A stretch of DNA of 11,522 nucleotides, taken from NCBI GenBank assembly GCA_016287975.1, contig JAEEXV010000130.1, positions 1-11,522 on the forward strand, given 5' to 3'. The first letter of the stretch is position 1. Each line of letters begins with the position of its first letter. The translations under genes and the position numbers were made by a program. The notes under the pieces were generated by a model, which was given only the letters and a program-made list of their open reading frames with translations, ran no database searches and was not told where the DNA came from. This DNA is from Lentisphaeria bacterium (GTDB taxonomy: Bacteria > Verrucomicrobiota > Lentisphaeria > Oligosphaerales > Oligosphaeraceae). Below are positions 792 through 11,522 of the stretch, one piece after another.

Positions 792-1670
792 TCATTCTTG
801 TTTCCCCCCCATCGTTCCGTTCCCGGGGCGGACAATCCGATGCAATGCCGTTCGCGCTGGACGGGAGACGCGCGCGTCCTTCGAGGCCGCGAGACGCTGC
901 AGGAGCGGCAGATCCGAGGCGTCGCCGAGCATTCCCACGGCGGCGATGGCCGAGGCGCGCAGCACCGGGGCGGAAGAGCGTCCGGCGATGGCGCGCGCCA
1001 CTGGCAGCGCGCGGCGCTCGCCCAGCGTCCCGCACACCTGCAGCAGCGCCGTCCGCGAAGTCTCCGAGCAGGCCGGATCCAGCAGCGCCTCCAACGCCGC
1101 TTCCGCGACCTGTTTTGCCGGGATTTCCGCCGAGGTGCGCGACAGCCATAGCAGTTGCCGTGCCGCCGAGCCGGCGGCGCGCCCGCCGCGACGGGTCTTC
1201 AGGGCCTCCCACAGCGCCTCCTCCATTGCCTTCCGGTTTGCGGCGTCCGAGATGCGTGGGTGGCACTTGCCCAGGAACTGCACGCAGTAGTCGCGCCACG
1301 TCTCGTCTGTATGGGGCGCACGGGACATCCGGATCAGCAGCCCCGCGAGATCCGGCAGTCCGTCGCGCTGGCGCAGCAACGCGAAGACCAGTTCGTTCTT
1401 CAGCGCGTTGAACTCCAGGTCGCCCAGCGGCTGCTCCGCGAGCGGCGCCTCCAGGAAAGCCCGCAGGCGCGCCTGCTGCGCCGGTGCGAGGTTCGAGGGC
1501 AGGGCGTGGATCAGCCGCAGACGCTCCGCATACGGGGGCGTCGGGGAGACCGCCCCCGTGATTCGTCCAATCTCCTGGTCCACCGCCGAGGCCAGGCGCA
1601 AACGCCCCTGGCCAAATGCCGACAGAGGCAATAGCAGCAAGGTCACCAGGATGCACAGGATTCTACGCAT
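792..1670 (-). CDS. Exported HEAT-repeat protein
   Basis: The product is 292 residues. Residues 1-20 form a Sec signal peptide (MRRILC, then a Leu-rich core ending SAFG) with cleavage predicted before Gln21, so the protein should act in the periplasm or outside. The middle (about 40-180) is helical and not assigned to a family. The C-terminal part (about 185-280) shows paired amphipathic helices of the HEAT type, for example the stretches ending in LGERRALPVARAIAG and the following AVGMLGDASDLPLLQRLAA. This points to a protein-binding scaffold and not an enzyme. The ATG at 1670 has no Shine-Dalgarno; the preceding bases are C-rich. It is separated from the upstream phosphatidyltransferase gene by a 210-bp repeat spacer and from the next gene by 629 bp, so it is probably a single unit. 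Unlike the genes to its right, it contains CCGG at about the random frequency. Specific function unknown. Confidence 0.75.
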   Translation of the reverse strand: MRRILCILVTLLLLPLSAFGQGRLRLASAVDQEIGRITGAVSPTPPYAERLRLIHALPSNLAPAQQARLRAFLEAPLAEQPLGDLEFNALKNELVFALLRQRDGLPDLAGLLIRMSRAPHTDETWRDYCVQFLGKCHPRISDAANRKAMEEALWEALKTRRGGRAAGSAARQLLWLSRTSAEIPAKQVAEAALEALLDPACSETSRTALLQVCGTLGERRALPVARAIAGRSSAPVLRASAIAAVGMLGDASDLPLLQRLAASKDARVSRPARTALHRIVRPGNGTMGGKQE

Positions 1671-1690: not shown

Positions 1691-1870
1691 CATTTCGTCA
1701 TGCCAGTTCAGTTGTCATTTCGTCATTTCGCCATGCCGGCCGGGGCGCCATTCCGTCATTCCGCCATGCCGGCTCAGTCATCATTTCGTCATTCCGCCAT
1801 TCCGGCCGGGGCGCCATTTCGTCATGCCGCCATTCCAGCAGGGGCGCCATTTCGTCATGCCGTCATTCCG
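1691..1870. repeat. ~33-bp imperfect tandem repeat (six copies)
   Basis: Units beginning CATTTCGTCA or CATTCCGTCA start at about 1691, 1716, 1749, 1782, 1814 and 1848, a spacing of 25, 33, 33, 32 and 34 bp. Each unit is made of the sub-element CATTYCGYCAT or CCATKCCG, and most end in a GGCCGGGGCGC-like tail. The block fills nearly the whole gap between the phosphatidyltransferase stop codon and the HEAT-protein start. Short open frames cross it and give periodic FRH-type peptides, which follow from the repeat period being close to a multiple of three. No promoter or terminator can be singled out inside it. Confidence 0.85.
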
Positions 1871-1880
1871 TGATTCATCC

Positions 1881-3362
1881 TCATGGGGCGGCGGGGCGGT
1901 CGACTGGCGGGGTGCTTTCCTTGGCTTCCTCCTCGTCCTCGGCGGCCTGTTCGAGGAAGAGTTTCTCGAGGTAGGCGGGAGTGGCGAAGGCGAAGAGGGC
2001 GTAGACGACCGAGAGGAGGGCAGTGAGGCCGATGAAGGAGGTGGCCCAGTCGAGGCTGGCGATGGCGATGCAGCTGTAGACGGTGACGAGGATGAGCAGG
2101 AAGATGCGGATGCCGCGCGGGAGGGATGGCCAGAGGTTGCGTCCGAAGTGGCGGTAGGAGAGGTCGGAGATCATCAGCAGCGAGGCGATCAGGGCGGAGG
2201 CGGCGGCCGCCCAGTCGGTCCAGGTGAAGTGGAACTGGTGCTGGAGGAGGTCGGCGGCGATGACGAAACTGCCTGCGAGGAGGGCGCCCGCGGGGCCAGG
2301 GAGGCCCTGGAAGATGCCTCGGGGGAGCGTGCGCGTGGGCTTCATGAAGCGGTAGAGGCGGTAGAAGAGGCATCCGACGTAGAGGATGGCGGTGACGGCG
2401 CCCAGGACGGGGCGGTGGACGAGACCGTGCGAGAGGCTGACATAGATGATGGAGCCGATGGCGAGTCCGAAACTGGTGGCGTCGGCGATGTCGTCGAAGA
2501 GCGCGCCGCGCTTGGTGGATCCGTATTTTCGGGCGACGCGGCCGTCGAAGAGGTCGAAGAACTGTCCCGCGAAGATGAGGAGGAATGCGAGGATGAAGTT
2601 GTTGGGGATGTCCATGAGGCGCCTGATCGGCGCGCGGGCGAATGCGGGGAACCATGCGATGGCGATGGCGAGGATGCCGCAGAGGAAGTTCAGGAAGGTC
2701 AGCGAGTTTGCGTACCAGTTGTTGGGGATGACCTTGCAGTAGAGGGAGAGGAATGCGAGGATGACGCAGGCGATCATCATCGTGTCCACGAAGTTCGACC
2801 GCATGAACTCGACGGGGAGGGGTTCGAGCTGGTTGAGCGCGACGATGGAGATGAGGACGGTGACGACGGCGGTCTTGACCTTGCCGAAGGAGTTGGCGGC
2901 CTTCTTCTGGCAGAAGAGGCGGGAGGCCTGGCCGATGACATCCAGGGTGCAGTAGATGACGACCCAGAGCAACGGCAGTTTGGGGGAGGGGACGCGGGGG
3001 CTGCTGGCGAGGGCGAGGTAGAAGAGCGCGGGGAAGGACATGCACTTGTCGGAGAAGGGGTCCAGCCAGGCGCCGATGGTGGTGGAGAGGTCGCAGGTGC
3101 GCGCGATGGTGCCGTCGGTGAGGTCGGTGATCATCCAGAAGGCGAACCAGAGGATGGCCCAGTCCCAGTGTCCGCAGTCGGCGATCCAGATGGCGATGAG
3201 TCCCTGCGGGATTCTCAGCAGGGAGATGCCATTGGGATGCAGGAAGAAGTGGTGCCGAATGAACTGCTGGCACTGGAGGCTGCGGGTGAAATAGAGCGCG
3301 AGGGTGCGTTCCAGGCCCAGCATCAGCAGGATGACGGCTATGATGAGCAGGGTGTAGTTCAT
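1881..3362 (-). CDS. Fused double CDP-alcohol phosphatidyltransferase (PgsA-like + PssA-like)
   Basis: The product is a 493-residue integral membrane protein with two complete CDP-alcohol phosphatidyltransferase domains in series. In the first, residues 80-105 match the family signature D-x2-DG-x2-AR-x8-G-x3-D-x3-D exactly (Asp80, Asp83, Asp101, Asp105). The LDPFSDK ending is typical of phosphatidylglycerophosphate synthases (PgsA). In the second, residues 270-294 carry DLFDGRVAR and, one residue closer than usual, GALFDDIAD, followed by SFG. Together with the upstream NSLTFLN this looks like phosphatidylserine synthase (PssA). The signature aspartates bind the metals that activate CDP-diacylglycerol. 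Several membrane spans surround each motif, and an acidic, Pro-rich tail (about 472-493) ends the protein. The ATG at 3362, 16 bp after the corC-like stop, puts MNYTLL directly before the first membrane span. An ATG at 3551 would add a Ser/Pro-rich piece lying inside the upstream gene and is rejected. Substrates are inferred from motifs only. Confidence 0.85.
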   Translation of the reverse strand: MNYTLLIIAVILLMLGLERTLALYFTRSLQCQQFIRHHFFLHPNGISLLRIPQGLIAIWIADCGHWDWAILWFAFWMITDLTDGTIARTCDLSTTIGAWLDPFSDKCMSFPALFYLALASSPRVPSPKLPLLWVVIYCTLDVIGQASRLFCQKKAANSFGKVKTAVVTVLISIVALNQLEPLPVEFMRSNFVDTMMIACVILAFLSLYCKVIPNNWYANSLTFLNFLCGILAIAIAWFPAFARAPIRRLMDIPNNFILAFLLIFAGQFFDLFDGRVARKYGSTKRGALFDDIADATSFGLAIGSIIYVSLSHGLVHRPVLGAVTAILYVGCLFYRLYRFMKPTRTLPRGIFQGLPGPAGALLAGSFVIAADLLQHQFHFTWTDWAAAASALIASLLMISDLSYRHFGRNLWPSLPRGIRIFLLILVTVYSCIAIASLDWATSFIGLTALLSVVYALFAFATPAYLEKLFLEQAAEDEEEAKESTPPVDRPAAP

Positions 3363-3378
3363 GGGAGGCGGGGATGGT

Positions 3379-4692
3379 TCAGGAGGCGCGTGGGGCGGTG
3401 CCGTCGGCGGCGGCGCGGCGGATTTTGACGGTGTTGAGCTTGCGTGGGGAAGCGCTGAGGATGTCGATGACGAGGTCGGGGGTTTCCAGATGCTCGCCAG
3501 TGCGCGGGATGCGCCCGAGCGCGGCCATAATATAGCCGCCCAGCGTGTCATAGCCTTCCTCCTCGGAGATTTCGAGGTCGAGGGCCTGGTTGACTTCCCA
3601 GATGGTCATGCGGGCGTCGGCGGTGAGGGATCCGTCGGGCTGCGGGGTGGCGCCGCCCGGGGGCGGTTCGTCGCGGTCGTATTCGTCCTGGATTTCGCCG
3701 ACGATTTCCTCGAGGATGTCCTCGATGGTGACGAGTCCCGAGGTGCCGCCGTATTCGTCAAGGACGACGGCGATGTGGATGTGCGCCTTTCGGAATTCGT
3801 CGAGGAGGTCGCTGACGTTTTTGGTCTCGGGGATGAAGACGGGGGGGTGGAGGAGGTCCTTGAGGCTGGAAATGCCCTGGATTCGCGTTTCGTCGAGGAG
3901 ATCCTTGGCGTAGAGGATACCGCTGATGGCGTCGATGGACTTTTCGAAGACGGGGATGCGGCTGTGTCCAGAGCGTGCGATGGCGCGTTTGGCCTCGTCG
4001 ATGGTGGTGTCCTCGCGGATGGCGTCGATGTCGACGCGCGGGGTCATGATTTCGTGGACGAGGGTCTTGTCGAGGTTGATGACGCCGTTGAGCATTCGCT
4101 TTTCGTCGCTTTCGAGGTCGTCGATGGGCGCGGACACTCCAGAGTCGGCGTGCGGGGCGTCGGTGTCGTCGTCTTCGAGGAGGGAACGGATTTCGTCTTC
4201 GGCGGTGACCTGTCCAGCGGTGTCGGGATCGGCGTTGCGGCGGTGTGCGCGGGCGAGCGCCTCCAGTGGGAGGAGCAGAAACGCGAATGGCCAGAAGAGG
4301 ATGGAGGTGAATGCGGAGACGGCTCGGAGGAGGAGTGCGGCGGCTTTGAGCCCGAGGGTGGCGTCGAGGATTTCGGTGGCGGTGAAGATGGCGGCGGGGA
4401 ATGCGGCGATGGCGACGGCTTTCCAGACGGGGGGGATGGAGGCGCGGAGATGCCAGGCGGCGAGGGTGACGGCCAGCGCGACGACGGCGGCGAGGAGGGC
4501 GAGGTGGCCAGTGAGGCGTCGTCGTGGCGCATGGAGGAGGAATTCCTCGAGGCGGTCGCTGAGGTCGCGGTCGTTTTCGCGGAGGCGGCGGAGGCTGGCG
4601 CGGTTGAAGGTCTCGGACTTCACGGCGGCCAGGGAGAGGAACACCACGAGGGCGGCGAGGGCGAGGGCGAGGAGAAGCAGGCTGCTACACAT
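3379..4692 (-). CDS. CNNM/CBS/CorC-HlyC family membrane protein
   Basis: The product is 437 residues with the layout of the HlyC/CorC (CNNM) family, linked to magnesium or cobalt efflux and metal homeostasis in the inner membrane. A membrane domain (spans near 4-23, 62-82, 88-107 and 116-145) is followed by an acidic linker. The paired CBS domains come next: the first begins near residue 214 (HEIMTPRVDIDAI) and the second runs about 280-335, including the conserved AVVLDEYGGTSGLVTIEDI at about 308-326. The C-terminal CorC/HlyC domain covers about 350-425. CBS pairs in this family bind adenine nucleotides. The start overlaps the ybeY stop by 8 nt (ATG at 4692, ybeY TAG at 4685-4687), so translation is probably coupled; there is no Shine-Dalgarno. 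The first membrane segment looks short and diverged compared with standard DUF21. Placement next to ybeY is common in bacteria (E. coli ybeX/corC). Confidence 0.88.
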   Translation of the reverse strand: MCSSLLLLALALAALVVFLSLAAVKSETFNRASLRRLRENDRDLSDRLEEFLLHAPRRRLTGHLALLAAVVALAVTLAAWHLRASIPPVWKAVAIAAFPAAIFTATEILDATLGLKAAALLLRAVSAFTSILFWPFAFLLLPLEALARAHRRNADPDTAGQVTAEDEIRSLLEDDDTDAPHADSGVSAPIDDLESDEKRMLNGVINLDKTLVHEIMTPRVDIDAIREDTTIDEAKRAIARSGHSRIPVFEKSIDAISGILYAKDLLDETRIQGISSLKDLLHPPVFIPETKNVSDLLDEFRKAHIHIAVVLDEYGGTSGLVTIEDILEEIVGEIQDEYDRDEPPPGGATPQPDGSLTADARMTIWEVNQALDLEISEEEGYDTLGGYIMAALGRIPRTGEHLETPDLVIDILSASPRKLNTVKIRRAAADGTAPRAS

Positions 4693-5194
4693 ACGGTTCT
4701 GTCGAGGGGGGGAGAAGGAGGCCGTCGAGGGGGATTTGCGTTTCCGTGGCGGCGAGGACCCTGGCTTCGGCGCGCCGCATGGCGGCGCGGTCGCGCGGGG
4801 TCAGGTCGTCGAGGCCCGCCAGATGGAGCATGCCGTGGACGGCGTAGCGGAAGAGTTCGCGCGAGGGGGAGGCCGAGAACCTGGGGGCCTGCCGCAGGGC
4901 GACCTCGGGGCAGATGTAGATTTCGGCGGCGACGGCTTCGCCCGCCTCGGGAGGGAGGCTGGCGAGCAGGTCGTCGCGCAGGTCGTAGGTGATGACGTCC
5001 GTGTCGCCTTCATGGCCCAGATGGAGGCGGTTCAGCCAGACGATGCGCGGTCGCGTGACCAGGATGAACCTGAGGATGCCAGGCGCCGCCGCGTCCAGGC
5101 CCGTCTGGGGCAGGGCGAGCGCGAGCGCCTTTCGGAAGCGCGGCAGGTCGCGCACTCCGCGCACGCGCGTCATTTTGGTCAGGTCGATTTGCAT
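4685..5194 (-). CDS. ybeY: Endoribonuclease YbeY (16S rRNA maturation)
   Basis: The product is 169 residues, normal for YbeY, a cytoplasmic zinc-dependent RNase that helps mature the 16S rRNA 3' end and in quality control of 70S ribosomes. The conserved N-terminal part shows LNRLHLGHEGDTDVITYDL (about 54-72), matching the LN-x-TDVL[ST]F block of the family. The metal site is HGMLHLAGLDD (120-130): His120 and His124 are present, but the third ligand, His in E. coli-type proteins, is Asp130. This H-to-D form also occurs in Bacteroidetes-type YbeY (as recalled from family knowledge), so the enzyme is probably active. The helix after it (PRDRAAMRRAEARVLAA) fits the family. The start ATG at 5194 lies 40 bp after the 7TM-HD stop and has no Shine-Dalgarno. 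The gene overlaps the downstream CorC-like gene by 8 nt. Confidence 0.9.
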   Translation of the reverse strand: MQIDLTKMTRVRGVRDLPRFRKALALALPQTGLDAAAPGILRFILVTRPRIVWLNRLHLGHEGDTDVITYDLRDDLLASLPPEAGEAVAAEIYICPEVALRQAPRFSASPSRELFRYAVHGMLHLAGLDDLTPRDRAAMRRAEARVLAATETQIPLDGLLLPPSTEPYV

Positions 5195-5234
5195 CTCGGG
5201 GTGGATGGAGGGCGGGCCAGTGGGGGCCAGTCGG

Positions 5235-7274
5235 TCATTTGCGGAGGTATTCGGGGCGGGCGTGGTTGCTGTTGACGAGGGTGTCGAGGAAGCTGTTGCG
5301 GATGATGCCGAGTTCGCGGGTCGTGAGGTCGGCGTTTTCGAGTTGGTGGTCGGCGATTTTGCCCTGGAAGACGGAGTCGATCCGTTCCGCGATGGCCCGC
5401 CGCAGTTCCTCCTTCTGGGGATTGAGGTCGGCGTCGATGGCGGCGGCGCATTGCCGCGCGAGGGTCTCCTTGTCCAGCTGCTCGCCTGGCAGATGCTGGA
5501 GTTTTTCGGCGGCGGCCAGGATGTTCCTGGTGATCTTGAGGGGGTCGGTCTTCTGGCTCAGGAGGGCGCGGACAGCGGCTTCGCAGGAATCGGCGAGGGA
5601 GAGGAGGGCGACTTCGCGGGAGGATGGGGGATCCTGCGTATAGCGGAAGGACTTCTGGTTCGGCGGGGCGCCGTGGCTGTCCTCGGCGGCGCGTCGGGCC
5701 TTTTCGAAGAAGGAGAACAGCAGTGAATTGCCGTGGTGCTGGAGGATGGCGGGGAGGAGGACGGGGTCGAGATGGTATTTTCGGGCGAGTTTTTCGCCGA
5801 AGGCGACATGTTCGCGGATGATGTCGCTGCTTTCCTGCGGCGGCATGTTGTCATGGGGGTTGGGCTTGCCGTTGAGGTTTTCCGCGAATTGCGCTGGCGA
5901 GAAGAGTTTTCCGATGTCGTGGTAGAGCGCCATGACATAGACGAGGCGCGGGTTGATGCCAGTGGGGGAGAGGGCGGCCCTGGCGGCGGCGGCGTCGTTT
6001 GTGGAGGGGAGGCGGGAGGTCTTGGCGGCCAGGTCGGCGGCGGCCTTGGAGGCCAGGTCGGCGACGGCGATGGAGTGCGCGTAGGTTCCTGGCGCCTCGT
6101 CGCGGAGGCGGTTGAGCAGGGGGGTGTTGAGGTCGCCGAGTTCATTGAGGGTCAGCGAGGAGACGAGGCGGAACATGGTCTCGAACAACGGCAGGGCCAT
6201 GACCGCGAGGAGTCCTGTGAGGAGGCCGTTGCCGAGGGCGAGGCCAGTGCATTGCGCATATAGGATGAGGCGGTCGGTGCGGTTCGGGGAGAGGGGGAGC
6301 AGGTTGACGATGAGCAGGGTGGAGGCGGCGATGATGATGCCGAGGAACAGTCCGCCCTGGAGGAACTGGGTGCGGGTGCTCACATGCTGGAAGCAGTAGA
6401 TTGCGGCCAGGGAGATGAGGAAGACGTGGCAGAAGATGGTATAGTGGCGGACGAGGGGGGGCAGGAAAAGCGGCAGGAGGAAGGAGAGGAAGACGACGGA
6501 TGCGGTGGTGAGGCGCCGGTTGAGCAGGTTGATGAGGAAGGCGGGGAGGAGGCCCAGGGGGAGCAGCGCCAGCAGAATGTAGTGGTTCCAGCCTTTGAGG
6601 GTGATGAAGAACTTGATGGCCGTGATCAGGCCGACTTCGATGACGAAGAGCAGCAGAACCAGCCCCATGCTTTTCCGCCCCGTCTGCTGCGGAAGGCCCA
6701 GGTTGAAAATGGCCATGGCGAACATGAGCAGGAGGGCGCCGAGGATGAAGAACGGGCGCAGGAACTGCGCCGTGCGGAGGGTATGGAAGCGCTGCCGCCA
6801 GGTGGGGAGGGGGGCCTTCGCCTTGGCACCTGGCTGGCGCGGCGTCGCCGTCTCGGCGGCGGCCGTGCCCACGGCGGGCTGCGTCGGGGGATTCGCCGCT
6901 TCCCTGGCCGACGGGGTGGCGGCGGGCTGGACGGCGGCGGGGTGCAGGCGGTTCCAGACGGCGGCATTGGGCGCCCAGGGGGTGGTCACATGGACGAGGA
7001 GGCACGCGCCCAGGAGGAACCAGAAGAGCAGGAAGAGCAGGAACGCGGGCCAATAGCATCGGATCCACAGGCGCAGGCGGTGGCGGAAGCGACGGGAGTC
7101 CATTTCCAGGGCGTTTTCGGTGTTGTGCTGGATGTCGGCCTGGGTGCGGGTCATTTCGCGGGTCCGTTCGTCCGCCGCCGTCGCCGTCGGGGCCATCGGG
7201 GTGGTGGCCGTGGCCGCGTGCGGGGCGGTCGAGGTGGCGGCGGTGCTTTTGGGCTGGGAGGAGTTTTTGCTCAT
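5235..7274 (-). CDS. 7TM-HD family phosphohydrolase (PgpH-like, c-di-AMP phosphodiesterase)
   Basis: The product is 679 residues. A hydrophilic Ser/Thr/Ala-rich N-terminus (1-70) is followed by one membrane span (about 73-95), a Pro/Ala-rich loop (96-171), about seven further spans (172-366) and a cytoplasmic HD domain (about 380-600). The HD-domain residues are visible: DLNTPLLNRLRDEAPGTYAHS (about 381-401, His400), YHDIGK (His452-Asp453), EHV (His489), QHHGNS (His513-His514) and LADSCEAAVRA (Asp562). This matches the 7TM-HD proteins such as PgpH, which hydrolyse c-di-AMP to pApA. Two departures are visible. The loop between the first and second spans is only about 75 residues, whereas PgpH has a folded extracellular 7TM-HDED domain of over 200. 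There is also an extra segment of about 20 residues before the YHDIGK motif. Starts at 7319 and 7340 are also possible; 7274 is preferred for a weak AGAGG about 7 nt upstream. Position before ybeY matches other phyla. Confidence 0.85.
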   Translation of the reverse strand: MSKNSSQPKSTAATSTAPHAATATTPMAPTATAADERTREMTRTQADIQHNTENALEMDSRRFRHRLRLWIRCYWPAFLLFLLFWFLLGACLLVHVTTPWAPNAAVWNRLHPAAVQPAATPSAREAANPPTQPAVGTAAAETATPRQPGAKAKAPLPTWRQRFHTLRTAQFLRPFFILGALLLMFAMAIFNLGLPQQTGRKSMGLVLLLFVIEVGLITAIKFFITLKGWNHYILLALLPLGLLPAFLINLLNRRLTTASVVFLSFLLPLFLPPLVRHYTIFCHVFLISLAAIYCFQHVSTRTQFLQGGLFLGIIIAASTLLIVNLLPLSPNRTDRLILYAQCTGLALGNGLLTGLLAVMALPLFETMFRLVSSLTLNELGDLNTPLLNRLRDEAPGTYAHSIAVADLASKAAADLAAKTSRLPSTNDAAAARAALSPTGINPRLVYVMALYHDIGKLFSPAQFAENLNGKPNPHDNMPPQESSDIIREHVAFGEKLARKYHLDPVLLPAILQHHGNSLLFSFFEKARRAAEDSHGAPPNQKSFRYTQDPPSSREVALLSLADSCEAAVRALLSQKTDPLKITRNILAAAEKLQHLPGEQLDKETLARQCAAAIDADLNPQKEELRRAIAERIDSVFQGKIADHQLENADLTTRELGIIRNSFLDTLVNSNHARPEYLRK

Positions 7275-7348
7275 GGGCAGGCCTCTGGTTGTGGAGGGCG
7301 CGCCGTCCGCCGCGGTCATGGCCGCGTCTGGACGGCGCATTCGGGGGA

Positions 7349-8785
7349 TCAGCGGATGTCCTTCAGGAAAGCGCCATAGCCCTTGTAGGCCATGTAGATG
7401 TCGAGCTTGCCTGCGACTTCCCAGGGGGCGTGCATGCAGAGGAGCCCGACGCCGCAGTCGATGACCTGGATGCCGAAGCGCGCCATGTAGAGCGCGATGG
7501 TGCCGCCGCCGCCGTGGTCGACCTTGCCCATTTCGCACATCTGCCACTTGACCTGGTTGTCGTTGAAGACCTTGCGGACTGCGGCGACGAATTCGGCGGA
7601 GGCGTCGGAGGAGCTGCTCTTGCCGCGGTGGCCAGTGTACTTTTCGAGTTCGATGCCGCAGTTGATGCGGCCCGTGTTGTTGGGGGAGTCGACGGACTTG
7701 TAGTCGGGGTCGGCGACGGTGCCGACGTCGGCGGAGAGCATCTTGGTGCGTTCAAGGGCGCGTCGGAGGGCGAGGTCGGAGGTCTCGCCGCAGGCGGCGA
7801 GGAGTTCGGCGATGGCGTTGGGCAGGAAGACGGAGTCCATGCCCGTGCGGCCGTAGGAGCCGATTTCCTCCTTGTCGCAGAGGAGGGCGCCGATGGTGCG
7901 CTGCGGCGTGCCCTTGAAGTCGAGGACGGCGCGTGCGGCGGCGTAGGAGCAGACGCGGTCGTCGTGGCCGTAGCCGAGGACCATGGAGCGGTCGAAGCCG
8001 AGTTCGCGGGCGGGGCCAGCGGGGACGACTTCGAGTTCGGCGGAGGCGAAGTCCTCCTCCTCGATGCCGTATTTTTCCTGGAGCAGCCGAAGGAGGTTGA
8101 GCTTGACCTTCTGCTTGATGTCGGGGTTGTCGTGCTTTTCGGCGACGGGGCGGCTGCCGAAGAGGACGTTGAGCTTGTCGCCAGGAATGAAGGAGCGCGC
8201 GGGCTTGTCGAGGTTTTCGGTGTCGAGGTGGGGGAGAAGATCGGTGACGGTGAAGACGGGATCCCCTGGCTGGTCTCCGATGGCGATGTCGATCCTGGCG
8301 CCGTCGCGTCGGATGATGACGCCGTAGAGGGCGAGGGGCATGGCGACCCACTGGTATTTCTTGATGCCGCCGTAGTAGTGGGTGTCGAGGAGGGCGAAGT
8401 CGCCGTCCTGGTAGAGCGGGCAGGCCTTGAGGTCGAGGCGGGGGCTGTCGATATGGCCGCCGACCAGGTTCAGGCCCTGCGCGGGGCCGTCCTTGCCGAC
8501 GCGGGCGAGGAAGATGGTCTTGCCGTCGACGATGCGGTAGACGGCGGCGCCAGGCTTGAGGCGGAGGCACTTGGCGTTGACTTCGTCGAGGTCGCGGAAG
8601 CCTTTGGCCCTGGCGTCGGCGGCGATGCGGGCGCAGGCGAGGCGCTCGGTCTTGGCGGCGCTCAGGAAGGCGATGTATTCGCGGCAGTATTCCTCCAGGG
8701 CGCGCTCTTCGGCGGCGGAGAGGTCCTTCCAGCCTGGTTCGCGTTTCCAGACGGTGACGGCGGGGGTGGCGGATTTTCTGGGCAT
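7349..8785 (-). CDS. M18 family zinc aminopeptidase
   Basis: The product is 478 residues, a cytosolic di-zinc metallopeptidase of family M18 that removes N-terminal residues, often acidic ones, from peptides. The metal and catalytic residues are all recognisable: His111 in GGHIDSPRLDLK, Asp275/Asp276 in YGHDDR, Glu306/Glu307 in DKEEIGS, Asp353 in LSADVG, and His452 in CMHAPWE close to the C-terminus. The stretch LLDTHYYGGIKKYQW (132-146) is typical of the bacterial/archaeal M18 branch often annotated aminopeptidase 1. Length is normal for the family. The start at 8785 is supported by a strong Shine-Dalgarno (AAGGAGG, 8794-8800), the best in the window. The gene begins 15 bp after the phenylacetate-CoA ligase stop and is probably cotranscribed with it, although no metabolic link is evident. 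The downstream 7TM-HD gene starts 74 bp after its stop. Confidence 0.93.
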   Translation of the reverse strand: MPRKSATPAVTVWKREPGWKDLSAAEERALEEYCREYIAFLSAAKTERLACARIAADARAKGFRDLDEVNAKCLRLKPGAAVYRIVDGKTIFLARVGKDGPAQGLNLVGGHIDSPRLDLKACPLYQDGDFALLDTHYYGGIKKYQWVAMPLALYGVIIRRDGARIDIAIGDQPGDPVFTVTDLLPHLDTENLDKPARSFIPGDKLNVLFGSRPVAEKHDNPDIKQKVKLNLLRLLQEKYGIEEEDFASAELEVVPAGPARELGFDRSMVLGYGHDDRVCSYAAARAVLDFKGTPQRTIGALLCDKEEIGSYGRTGMDSVFLPNAIAELLAACGETSDLALRRALERTKMLSADVGTVADPDYKSVDSPNNTGRINCGIELEKYTGHRGKSSSSDASAEFVAAVRKVFNDNQVKWQMCEMGKVDHGGGGTIALYMARFGIQVIDCGVGLLCMHAPWEVAGKLDIYMAYKGYGAFLKDIR

Positions 8786-8793
8786 GGCGGAAG

Positions 8794-8800
8794 CCTCCTT
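8794..8800 (-). promoter_or_regulatory. Strong Shine-Dalgarno (AAGGAGG) of the M18 aminopeptidase gene
   Basis: On the minus strand AAGGAGG precedes the ATG at 8785 by 8 nt and starts directly after the upstream stop codon (TAA, 8801-8803). It fixes the start of the aminopeptidase. None of the other gene starts here has a comparable motif; most are preceded by C-rich DNA. Confidence 0.85.
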
Positions 8801-10087
8801 TTACTTGGCGGGGTGGTCGAGGTCGACTTTGACGACGCGTTTGGCCTTGCCCTCGGAGCGGGGGAGGGTGCCAGGGGCGAAGACGTCGCCCTTGGGGGAG
8901 AACCCGAGGCGTTCCTTGAGGTGCTTCTCGATGGTGTATCCAGTGACGCCCTGCTCGGCCTCGACGTTGATGCGGACGTCCTGGATGCCGCCTCGGGTTT
9001 CGAGGATGATCTGGTATTCGGGGAGGACGCCTGGGATTTCGAGGAGGGCCTGTTCGACCTGCTTGGGGAAGAAGTTGACGCCCTTGATGATCATCATGTC
9101 GTCGTGGCGTCCGACGATGCGCGCAAGGCGGAGGCTGGTGCGTCCGCAGGCGCACTTTTCGCGGGAGATGATCTTGGAGATGTCGCCAGTGCGGAAGCGG
9201 ATGACGGGGATGGCCTCGCGGGTGAGGGCGGTGAAGACGACGTCGCCGTAGGTGCCGTCGGGGACGGGTTCGCCAGTCTTGGGATCGACGACTTCGGTGA
9301 TGTACTGGTCCTCCCAGACGTGGATGCCGCAGCGTGCGGCGCAGTCCATTCCCGTGGTTCCGACGCCGCCCGTCTCGGTCATGCCGTAGATGTCGTATGC
9401 CTTGATGCCAGTCGTGCTTTCGATCTTGTGGCGCATTTCATCGGAGAAGGTCTCGGCGCCGAAGATGCCGATCTTGAGGTCGGGGAGTTCGACTTTTTGC
9501 TCGATGGCGACTTCGAGGATTCGGGCCATGTAGGAGACGACGCAGCCGATGGCCTTGACCTTGAAGTCGTGGAGGAGTTTGATCTGGCGGGGGGTGTTGC
9601 CGCTGGAGGCGGGGGAGATGAAGAGATTGGCGAGGCGGGCGCCGTGGTAGAAACCGAAGCCGCCGTTGAAGAGTCCGAAGGTCGGGGTGATCTGGAGCAT
9701 GTCGCCAGGGTAGAGGCCCGCCATGCGGAAGCATCTGGCCATGCACTCCGCCCATTGGAGCAGGTCGTTCTGGGTGTAGGCCATGACGACGGGGGTGCCC
9801 GTGGAGCCGCTCGACATGTGGAACTCGCGCAGTTCGGTCTTGGGGACGGTGCACATGCCCAGCGGATAGTTGACGCGGAAGTCCTCCTTGCCCATGAACG
9901 GGAGCAGGTGGAGATCCTCAATGCCGCGGATGTCGCCTGGCTTGAGGCCGATGGCGTCGAATTTCTGGCGGAAGTAGGGGCTCGTGGCATAGACCCTGTT
10001 CACCTGGCGGCGAAGCCGCTCGTTCTGCAGGGCGGTCAACTCGTCGCGGGACATGGTTTCGTAGCGCTCGTTCCAGTATTCGTTCAT
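8801..10087 (-). CDS. paaK: Phenylacetate-CoA ligase
   Basis: The product is 428 residues, the normal length for PaaK, an ANL-superfamily adenylate-forming enzyme that makes phenylacetyl-CoA from phenylacetate, ATP and CoA in the cytoplasm. Visible motifs are the phosphate loop SSGSTGTP (92-99), YGMTETGG (234-241), the RFRTGD motif (297-302), the hinge region IKGVNFFP (334-341) and EGKAKR near the C-terminus (412-417) with the candidate catalytic lysine. Cysteines at 249/253 and in KCACGR (311-316) are typical of this subgroup and may bind a metal. In anaerobes this enzyme often sits beside indolepyruvate:ferredoxin oxidoreductase (iorAB) and salvages aryl acids. No such genes are here; it lies between hisG and an M18 peptidase, so its real substrate (phenylacetate, indoleacetate or another aryl acid) cannot be fixed. 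The ATG at 10087 has no Shine-Dalgarno and abuts a 9-bp tandem repeat. Confidence 0.92.
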   Translation of the reverse strand: MNEYWNERYETMSRDELTALQNERLRRQVNRVYATSPYFRQKFDAIGLKPGDIRGIEDLHLLPFMGKEDFRVNYPLGMCTVPKTELREFHMSSGSTGTPVVMAYTQNDLLQWAECMARCFRMAGLYPGDMLQITPTFGLFNGGFGFYHGARLANLFISPASSGNTPRQIKLLHDFKVKAIGCVVSYMARILEVAIEQKVELPDLKIGIFGAETFSDEMRHKIESTTGIKAYDIYGMTETGGVGTTGMDCAARCGIHVWEDQYITEVVDPKTGEPVPDGTYGDVVFTALTREAIPVIRFRTGDISKIISREKCACGRTSLRLARIVGRHDDMMIIKGVNFFPKQVEQALLEIPGVLPEYQIILETRGGIQDVRINVEAEQGVTGYTIEKHLKERLGFSPKGDVFAPGTLPRSEGKAKRVVKVDLDHPAK

Positions 10088-10090
10088 GGG

Positions 10091-10140
10091 ATTTCAGGGA
10101 TTAAAAGGGATTTAAGGGATTTAAGGGATTTAAGGGATGC
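10091..10140. repeat. 9-bp tandem repeat (GGGATTTAA) between hisG and paaK
   Basis: Three perfect head-to-tail copies of GGGATTTAA lie at about 10108-10134, flanked by degenerate copies: GGGATTAAAA on the left, GGGATGCAA on the right, and further GGATT words at 10088 and 10146. It occupies almost all of the 61-bp gap. On the transcribed strand it reads TTAAATCCC repeated and ends at the paaK ATG, where a ribosome binding site would be expected. It is A+T-rich against the surrounding DNA and so may also hold a promoter, although no clear -35/-10 pair is visible. Confidence 0.85.
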
Positions 10141-10148
10141 AAGCGGGA

Positions 10149-10997
10149 TTAGATTCGGCAGGTTTTGATGTCGGTCACGATGATGCCGTTGGCTCCGACC
10201 TCTTCGAGACGGTCGATGGTGGGGTTGAGGTCTCCGCGCTTGACCATGGCCTTGACGGCGTGCCAGCCTGGCTTGGAGAGGGGCATGATGGTGGGGGATT
10301 CGAGGCCAGGGGTGATGGCGCAGGCGGCTTCGAGTCGGTCGGAGGTGATGTCGTATTCGATGACGACGTAGTCGCGGGCGGTGAGGATGCCGCGGACGCG
10401 CTTGAGGAATGCCTGGATCTGGGGCTGCCGCTCGGCCTCGGCGGAGCGCGCGATGAGGACGGCTTCGGAGAGCATGACGGGTTCGCCGATGGGCGCGAGT
10501 CCCGCCTGGCGCATGGTGGTTCCAGATTCGACGACATCGGCGATGGCGTCGGCGACGCCGAGGCGGATGGAGATTTCGACGGCGCCGTCGAGTTTGACGA
10601 TCTGGCACTGGAAGCCGCGGCGGGCCATGTCGGCGGCGACGATGCTGGGGTAGCTGGAGGCGATGCGCTTGCCGTCGAGATCCGCGACGGTGAGTCCGCT
10701 GTCGGCGGGGGCGGCGTAGGTGAAGCGGGATTTGCCGAAGCCGAGGGGCTGGAGTTCGACGGCGGCGGCCTGGGAATCGACGAGGAGGTCGCGGCCCGTG
10801 ATGCCCAGGTCGACGATGCCGTGGGCGACATAGATGGCGATGTCGCGCGGGCGCAGGAAGAGGAATTCGACGTCGTTGGCGGTGTCGGTCACGGCGAGTT
10901 CCTTGGCGGCGCGGCGGGCGCTGTAGCCGGCCTGCTTGACGAGGAGCGCGGCCTCTTCGGAGAGGGAGCCTTTGTTGGGGAGGGCGATGCGGATCAT
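10149..10997 (-). CDS. hisG: ATP phosphoribosyltransferase, long form
   Basis: The product is 282 residues and catalyses the first, feedback-controlled step of histidine synthesis: ATP + PRPP to phosphoribosyl-ATP. The N-terminus MIRIALPNKGSL and FLRPRDIAIYV (47-57), the GITGRDLL block (65-72) and the PRPP-binding loop at 138-161 (DGAVEISIRLGVADAIADVV, then ESGT) are diagnostic. It is the long form: residues from about 208 to 282 make the ACT-like C-terminal domain that binds histidine (ITPGLESPTI at 228-237 lies at its start). It should therefore work as a homohexamer without HisZ and be inhibited by histidine. It starts 9 bp after the hisE stop, so the two are cotranscribed. As recalled, it resembles the Mycobacterium type in length and motifs. 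The ATG at 10997 lacks a clear Shine-Dalgarno. Confidence 0.96.
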   Translation of the reverse strand: MIRIALPNKGSLSEEAALLVKQAGYSARRAAKELAVTDTANDVEFLFLRPRDIAIYVAHGIVDLGITGRDLLVDSQAAAVELQPLGFGKSRFTYAAPADSGLTVADLDGKRIASSYPSIVAADMARRGFQCQIVKLDGAVEISIRLGVADAIADVVESGTTMRQAGLAPIGEPVMLSEAVLIARSAEAERQPQIQAFLKRVRGILTARDYVVIEYDITSDRLEAACAITPGLESPTIMPLSKPGWHAVKAMVKRGDLNPTIDRLEEVGANGIIVTDIKTCRI

Positions 10998-11006
10998 GGC
11001 GGTGCT

Positions 11007-11522
11007 TCAGAGGTTGCGGTAGAGATCTTCGAGGGAGAGCTGCTTCTTGAGCATGAGCACGACCAGATGATAGACCAGCTGGCTGATCTCCTCCATCGTG
11101 CGCTCCGATTTTTCGTATTCGGCGGACATCCAGACCTCGGCGGCCTCCTCGACGATCTTCTTGCCGATGGCGTGAACCCCCGCGTTGAACTCGGCAACGG
11201 TGCGCGACTTGGGGTCGTTCGCCTCGATCTTGCGGGCGAGTTCCTGGAAGAGGTCCTCCAGGGTCTTGCGGGTGGGCTCGCCGCGGCCCGCAAACTGCGG
11301 GGGGAGATTCGCGGCGATCACGGGGCGCGGCCCGCCGTTCGCGGGCTGGGGGCCGAGGTAGTTGTGCGCGGTGAGTTCATCCAGCAGGTTGGCGGCGCGT
11401 TCGGTGGAGACATGCAGGGCACCCGCGATCGCGCGCGGGGTCGCGGCGCAGCCGTCGACGATGGCCGCGAGGGCGTCGAGGGCGATCGGTTCGCCGTCTT
11501 CGGGCAGGCGGTGGCCGGGCGC
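11007..11522 (-). CDS. hisE: Winged-helix (FtsK-gamma-like) domain fused to phosphoribosyl-ATP pyrophosphatase HisE, partial at right edge
   Basis: The frame is open from the right window edge to the stop at 11007, giving 171 visible residues. The last 87 are a complete HisE domain (from KTLEDLFQELARKI), which hydrolyses phosphoribosyl-ATP to phosphoribosyl-AMP, step two of histidine synthesis. Its metal-binding helices show GKKIVEEAAEVW and EEISQLVYHLVV, followed by SLEDLYRNL. The 67 codons before position 11321 have no stop and no ATG, and very high third-position GC. They encode a helix-turn-helix stretch (ALDALAAIVDG, then TPRAIAGALHVS, then TERAANLLDELTAHNYLG, then NGGPRPVIAANLPP). This resembles the C-terminal gamma domain of FtsK, including its NREVLAPPP-like end. 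If translation began at the GTG at 11321, HisE would have a free-standing 104-residue product. The open coding-like frame favours a fusion. HisI-type cyclohydrolase motifs are not seen. Confidence 0.8.
   Translation of the reverse strand, partial: APGHRLPEDGEPIALDALAAIVDGCAATPRAIAGALHVSTERAANLLDELTAHNYLGPQPANGGPRPVIAANLPPQFAGRGEPTRKTLEDLFQELARKIEANDPKSRTVAEFNAGVHAIGKKIVEEAAEVWMSAEYEKSERTMEEISQLVYHLVVLMLKKQLSLEDLYRNL

Follow-up and report, generated by a model that had tools for sequence, protein, structure and literature searches.

The DNA analyzed here, contig JAEEXV010000130.1 (11,522 nucleotides, hereafter the window), has almost entirely lost the tetranucleotide CCGG over most of its length. 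Between positions 1810 and 11514 there are three CCGG sites, where a maximum-order Markov model expects 63.9. The window is an extreme case of the already known avoidance of Type II restriction sites, here in an uncultured lineage and owing to selection more than to deamination. With a probability of roughly three in four, the loss reflects long selection against the target of a Type II restriction enzyme of HpaII/MspI specificity, resident for much of the recent ancestry of the lineage.

The whole window holds 25 CCGG, of which 21 fall at 3-1806 and one at 11515. The remaining three lie exactly where the sequence-only reading, an earlier inspection of the letters by eye, had placed them:

1810-11514, unstranded, CCGG-depleted stretch
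3657-3660, unstranded, surviving CCGG (site count)
6516-6519, unstranded, surviving CCGG (site count)
10927-10930, unstranded, surviving CCGG (site count)

That reading had expected about one hundred sites, which agrees with base composition (97.2) but is too many by the Markov model or by synonymous shuffling of the eight minus-strand genes of the stretch, which yields 62.1 (standard deviation 4.0), with a minimum of 52 in 500 shuffles. The shuffle argues against protein composition or codon usage as an explanation. Of the 16 palindromic tetramers, CCGG has a shuffle z score of -14.7, followed by AGCT at -4.2 (12 vs. 25.1 expected); ACGT (13 vs. 22.5) and GTAC (3 vs. 13.4) are low as well. 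GGCC and GCGC, described earlier as still common, are indeed much less affected, as is CGCG (Markov observed/expected 88/118, 122/126 and 123/142, respectively), although GGCC is somewhat low by shuffling (83 vs. 104.7). The tetramers containing CG are thus not equally reduced, the loss is specific to CCGG, and a general depletion of CG or of palindromes is ruled out. The same applies to a CCWGG-type target, since CCWGG is close to expected (64 vs. 70.8), and GATC is normal (39 vs. 38.0). A phage origin of the stretch was rejected in view of its housekeeping genes; a scan of viral_contigs with the AMP-binding protein, the sole protein scanned there, gave no relative.

The depletion has a boundary on the left. 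Positions 1-1809 are normal, with 21 CCGG against 20.8 expected, and within them 80-759 is again free of sites (0 vs. 5.2, p 0.006). Three features characterize this end of the window:

760-1809, unstranded, CCGG-normal patch with 17 of the 21 left-hand sites, at 760-1806 (CCGG counts)
792-1670, minus strand, HEAT-repeat gene (PF13646), CCGG 10 vs. 8.0 expected
1691-1870, unstranded, 33/66-base tandem array spanning the boundary (repeat scan)

The codon usage of the HEAT-repeat gene is outlying, its log-likelihood per codon falling 0.71 below expectation against -0.19 to +0.14 for the eight genes. Its relatives are patchy, since 6 of the order's 47 genomes have one, and the closest long matches reach 70-75% in G019 and G033 (our genome handles), with short pieces up to 90%; the M18 aminopeptidase of these two genomes is 60-61% identical to that of the window. 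Given its normal CCGG content, its codon usage and its patchy relatives, the segment left of 1810 (760-1809, with the HEAT gene) is probably recently acquired DNA, as yet unpurged. An alternative scenario, limited to the boundary, has the leftmost 1.8 kb deriving from another genome that an assembly error fused to the rest at the tandem array; the boundary would then say nothing about recent acquisition. The change does fall within such an array, a kind of sequence prone to assembly errors, and foreign codon usage marks the HEAT gene, but the renewed lack of CCGG at 80-759 fits, if weakly, a patch between native flanks. We regard misassembly as unlikely, though deserving of some weight. The array carries CCGG at 1736, 1740, 1769, 1802 and 1806, and CCAG at 1703 and 1835, matching positions of other units. 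The HEAT-repeat family is itself of confined and patchy occurrence. G033 holds several copies or pieces of it, and a copy there (L286:7948-11472) forms the front of a 1,174-amino-acid open reading frame (ORF) running into what we take, by eye, to be RHS-like repeats; a HEAT relative (P0203) bears PF05593. At 441-704 lies a tandem repeat with a 96-base unit (2.7 copies, 95% matches).

Within the eight genes, CCGG is lost in all three reading frames. NCC accounts for 1 of 51 codons before GG against 605 of 777 elsewhere; CCG for 0 of 47 before a G not followed by G against 37 of 111 before non-G; and CGG for 1 of 129 arginine codons after C against 14 of 82 elsewhere. Where proline precedes a G not followed by G, CCC fills the place of CCG (44/47) and CCA does not (3/47 vs. 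8/111 before non-G). In the frame C|CGG (the bar marks the codon boundary) deamination is always non-synonymous, as both C|TGG and C|CAG alter the residue, and the all-frame loss therefore counts for selection. The dipeptides tallied earlier were counted exactly: the 18 Thr-Gly pairs use 9 ACT, 8 ACG, 1 ACA and 0 ACC, and the 16 Pro-Gly pairs 7 CCT, 8 CCA, 1 CCG and 0 CCC.

The sequence-only reading had taken the silent changes as those expected from deamination of a methylated inner cytosine on either strand, which would raise CTGG and CCAG. We compared both with a null that forbids CCGG only and otherwise retains background codon use. CTGG stands at 82 against 61.9, and CCAG shows no excess (80 vs. 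82.6). The silent C-to-T changes are real, NCT occurring before GG 21 times against 4.0 expected, but their G-to-A mirror is missing, as CCA|G reaches 11 against 18.1 (NCC|AG 20 vs. 12.0; third frame 49 vs. 52.6). Sites are gone where decay would alter the protein, and CTGG and CCAG are not both raised; selection thus explains the loss, and deamination as its main mechanism is not supported.

Deamination might still have assisted. In one such scenario CCGG is selected against and is also hypermutable on the coding strand, the methylated inner C turning to T during transcription or replication and leaving the otherwise rare NCT codons as lasting scars. NCT makes up 21 of 51 codons before GG against 6 of 777 elsewhere, and 21 of all 27 NCT in the eight genes precede GG. 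Since the G-to-A mirror is absent, any contribution of deamination would be confined to the coding strand. For Thr, Ala and four-codon Ser, T is favored over A+G before GG with an odds ratio of 16.5 in the window, against 1.7-3.0 in the three depleted genomes and 1.1-1.6 in three undepleted ones; G041, partly depleted, stands at 0.88. We consider this added hypermutability improbable; if true, the scars would tell how old the purge is and which way it ran, and could serve to date when a restriction system was gained.

Purely mutational decay, in which an HpaII-like methyltransferase would turn inner-C 5-methylcytosine into T, and CCGG into CTGG or CCAG, with no selection on the site, is very unlikely. 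It would account for the abundance of NCT before GG and the raised CTGG, and could draw on the ratio of CCT to CCA in proline before GG (7:8 vs. 1:11 elsewhere, p 0.04; p 0.18 against proline before non-G only) and on the two array units with CCAG where others hold CCGG, a change that could run in either direction. Yet CGG after C is equally depleted, CCAG is not in excess and CCG gave way to CCC. Furthermore, decay must alone supply a rise of about 2,000-fold in T:C before GG (a figure resting on one NCC), and CTGG plus CCAG shows no specific rise in depleted genomes, at 1.18-1.30 of expectation against 1.15-1.22 in the undepleted G036, G030 and G042 (G041, 1.24). The loss of C|CGG, the replacement of CCG by CCC, the lack of a CCAG excess and these CTGG plus CCAG levels led us to drop deamination as the sole cause. 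AGG after C, at first sight an escape scar (10/129 vs. 0/82, p 0.007; 10 vs. 0.2 under the null), was set aside because the undepleted G036 shares the preference (293/758 vs. 191/1518 elsewhere); G030 is without it (44/752 vs. 74/1220).

Depletion recurs among relatives. Measured as the count of ACCGGC against its reversed control in the 47 genomes of the order, it is strong and genome-wide in three, namely G001 (64/3017), G035 (185/2822) and G034 (183/1941), and partial in six (G002, G037, G038, G040, G041 and G043, ratio 0.24-0.42), while the other 38 have ratios of at least 0.60. In sampled DNA, CCGG stands at 0.06 of expectation in G001, 0.11 in G034, 0.14 in G035 and 0.93 in G036. The six sister genomes of the window in the M18 tree have ACCGGC ratios of 0.41-0.89, none being strongly depleted, and G001 sits elsewhere in that tree; the loss of CCGG has therefore arisen independently at least twice within the order. 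The M18 orthologue search gave none in G035 and merely a 28% paralogue in G034, and the HisG paralogues of G034 and G035 share 86% and 97% identity with the one in G001. GATC is likewise depleted in the samples of G001, G034 and G035 (L156-L187, L196-L235; 0.31, 0.30 and 0.23 of expectation), which suggests a second long-lived restriction specificity in this group; its normal level in the window argues against a single shared event of CCGG loss.

HpaII cuts at CCGG, and genes for HpaII-family endonucleases (PF09561) occur in two of the 47 genomes, the depleted G034 and the undepleted G036, both outside the sister group of the window and both with a C5 methyltransferase gene directly preceding the endonuclease gene. 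The G034 contig bearing the pair is itself depleted (CCGG 3 vs. 35.5), whereas the 20-kb piece of G036 with the endonuclease is not (72 vs. 73.2), as expected of a recent arrival. An old and a recent resident system would look like this, as described by Rusinov et al. 2015 (PMC4687349). The family was also found in 10 of 288 genomes drawn from the phylum, G036 among them. The ACCGGC ratio of the other nine carriers ranges from 0.43 to 5.13, five lying below 0.6, and none of the 19 counted non-carriers (of 278) does so, the lowest being 0.64, with kinship and base composition uncontrolled in both sets.

No CCGG specificity emerged for other enzymes of the depleted or partly depleted genomes. 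The C5 methyltransferase L082 of G001 is also present in the undepleted G005, and L086, a second one in G001, lies on a 20-kb piece much richer in CCGG than the pieces around it. Methyltransferase L110 of G035 adjoins an Eco29kI-family endonuclease (PF09517, a match tested for L110 alone) and L081 of G002 an EcoRII-family enzyme, and the sites known for these enzymes do not account for CCGG. Several side observations concern the same loci. The C5 methyltransferase gene and its adjoining ORF of no Pfam family (L082 and L083) differ between the distant G001 and G005 by 1 and 0 residues over 375 and 337 amino acids, which suggests that what is probably a restriction-modification system was transferred very recently. 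The piece L164 (G001:C32:1-20000) holds 53 CCGG against 99.2 expected, where other sampled 20-kb pieces hold 0-6; with genes for a C5 methyltransferase and a HATPase-domain protein, it is likely an imported defense region. L085 and L087 contain pairs which, by eye, resemble that of L110.

In this context, we put forward that an enzyme of HpaII/MspI specificity would have been resident during a large part of the lineage's recent ancestry. Cutting of CCGG sites missed by methylation would impose a slight cost per site, such that synonymous changes destroying CCGG would be retained in every reading frame. Many escapes would take the cheapest route, a third-position C to T before GG, and the left HEAT-repeat segment would have arrived too recently for purging. 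The long-lived CCGG restriction-modification system suggested by the sequence-only reading is accordingly still the best explanation, and it fits the pattern published in PMC4687349; the enzyme, however, is one we infer, for there is no restriction or methylase gene among the scanned proteins of the window. This absence weighs against our explanation, and so do several other findings. The most depleted relatives, G001 and G035, give no HpaII-family match, and a search for the MspI family gave no match anywhere, its controls being equally silent and the search hence uninformative. Presence of the HpaII family predicts depletion poorly, four of the nine other carriers in the phylum having ratios above 1. 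The NCT excess goes beyond equilibrium avoidance alone; it may stem from transition-biased first steps still unrelaxed, from decoding of NCT by the same tRNA as NCC or from coding-strand deamination. Finally, PMC4687349 reports an excess of CCGG in Helicobacter genomes that have systems of this kind. Selection against CCGG unrelated to restriction, for instance through a regulatory or DNA-binding protein using it, would suit G001 and G035 but is hardly credible, as one exact palindromic tetramer is lost in all frames while CCWGG and GCGC stay, and as only 0.7% of site-genome pairs are reported to be underrepresented in genomes without any restriction-modification system (PMC4687349).

The depleted stretch consists of eight genes from an uncultured Victivallales/Lentisphaerota bacterium, identified by Pfam matches of the scanned window proteins:

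1881-3362, minus strand, CDP-alcohol phosphatidyltransferase gene (PF01066), 0 CCGG; start chosen by us within a longer ORF
3379-4692, minus strand, CorC/CNNM-like CBS-domain protein gene (PF03471, PF00571), 1 CCGG
4685-5194, minus strand, ybeY gene (PF02130), 0 CCGG
5235-7340, minus strand, 7TM-HD phosphohydrolase gene (PF01966, PF07698), 1 CCGG; start chosen, 7274 a possible later start
7349-8785, minus strand, M18 aminopeptidase gene (PF02127), 0 CCGG; used for placing the organism
8801-10087, minus strand, AMP-binding ligase gene (PF14535, PF00501), presumably phenylacetate-CoA ligase-like, 0 CCGG
10149-10997, minus strand, hisG gene (PF01634, PF08029), 1 CCGG
11007-11321, minus strand, hisE gene (phosphoribosyl-ATP pyrophosphohydrolase, PRA-PH; PF01503), 0 CCGG

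The closest M18 relatives in genome_contigs, among the best 80 of 345 confirmed loci, are metagenome-assembled genomes of Victivallales and Lentisphaerae at no more than 70% identity. The best 120 of 7,999 scored M18 proteins include a single identical one, encoded on a contig of 2,513 bases; those ranking next stand at 70-71%. A tree of 31 M18 rows groups the window with its sisters G005, G030, G031, G032, G041 and G042, and this seven-row group has support 100/99. The intergenic region at 10088-10138 of this G+C-rich chromosome contains a 9-base tandem repeat, GGGATTTAA, in 5.6 copies.

A limited literature search found neither codon-level accounts of restriction avoidance nor restriction avoidance tied to Lentisphaerota. 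The window provides a strong natural record of restriction acting on the host's own housekeeping genes, of a kind that occurs more than once in a largely uncultured order, and the reading-frame comparison is a simple test separating selection from deamination. It also suggests that a CCGG-normal patch could flag recently acquired DNA. The case leaves existing knowledge of restriction avoidance unchanged. Compared with the HpaII system, a PF09561 endonuclease with a C5 methyltransferase, the window differs in having neither among its scanned proteins, whereas the depleted G034 has the pair; the undepleted G036 has it too, and presence alone thus does not imply depletion. In Rusinov et al. 2015 (PMC4687349), avoidance tracks the residence time of a restriction-modification system and can outlast its loss, old systems showing avoidance and new ones not; that paper is without a codon-by-frame test of deamination, the words "codon" and "deamination" occurring 0 times in its text. 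Here the enzyme is unseen, and the likeness to the avoidance described there lies in how strongly and specifically a chromosome lacks a short palindromic Type II site.

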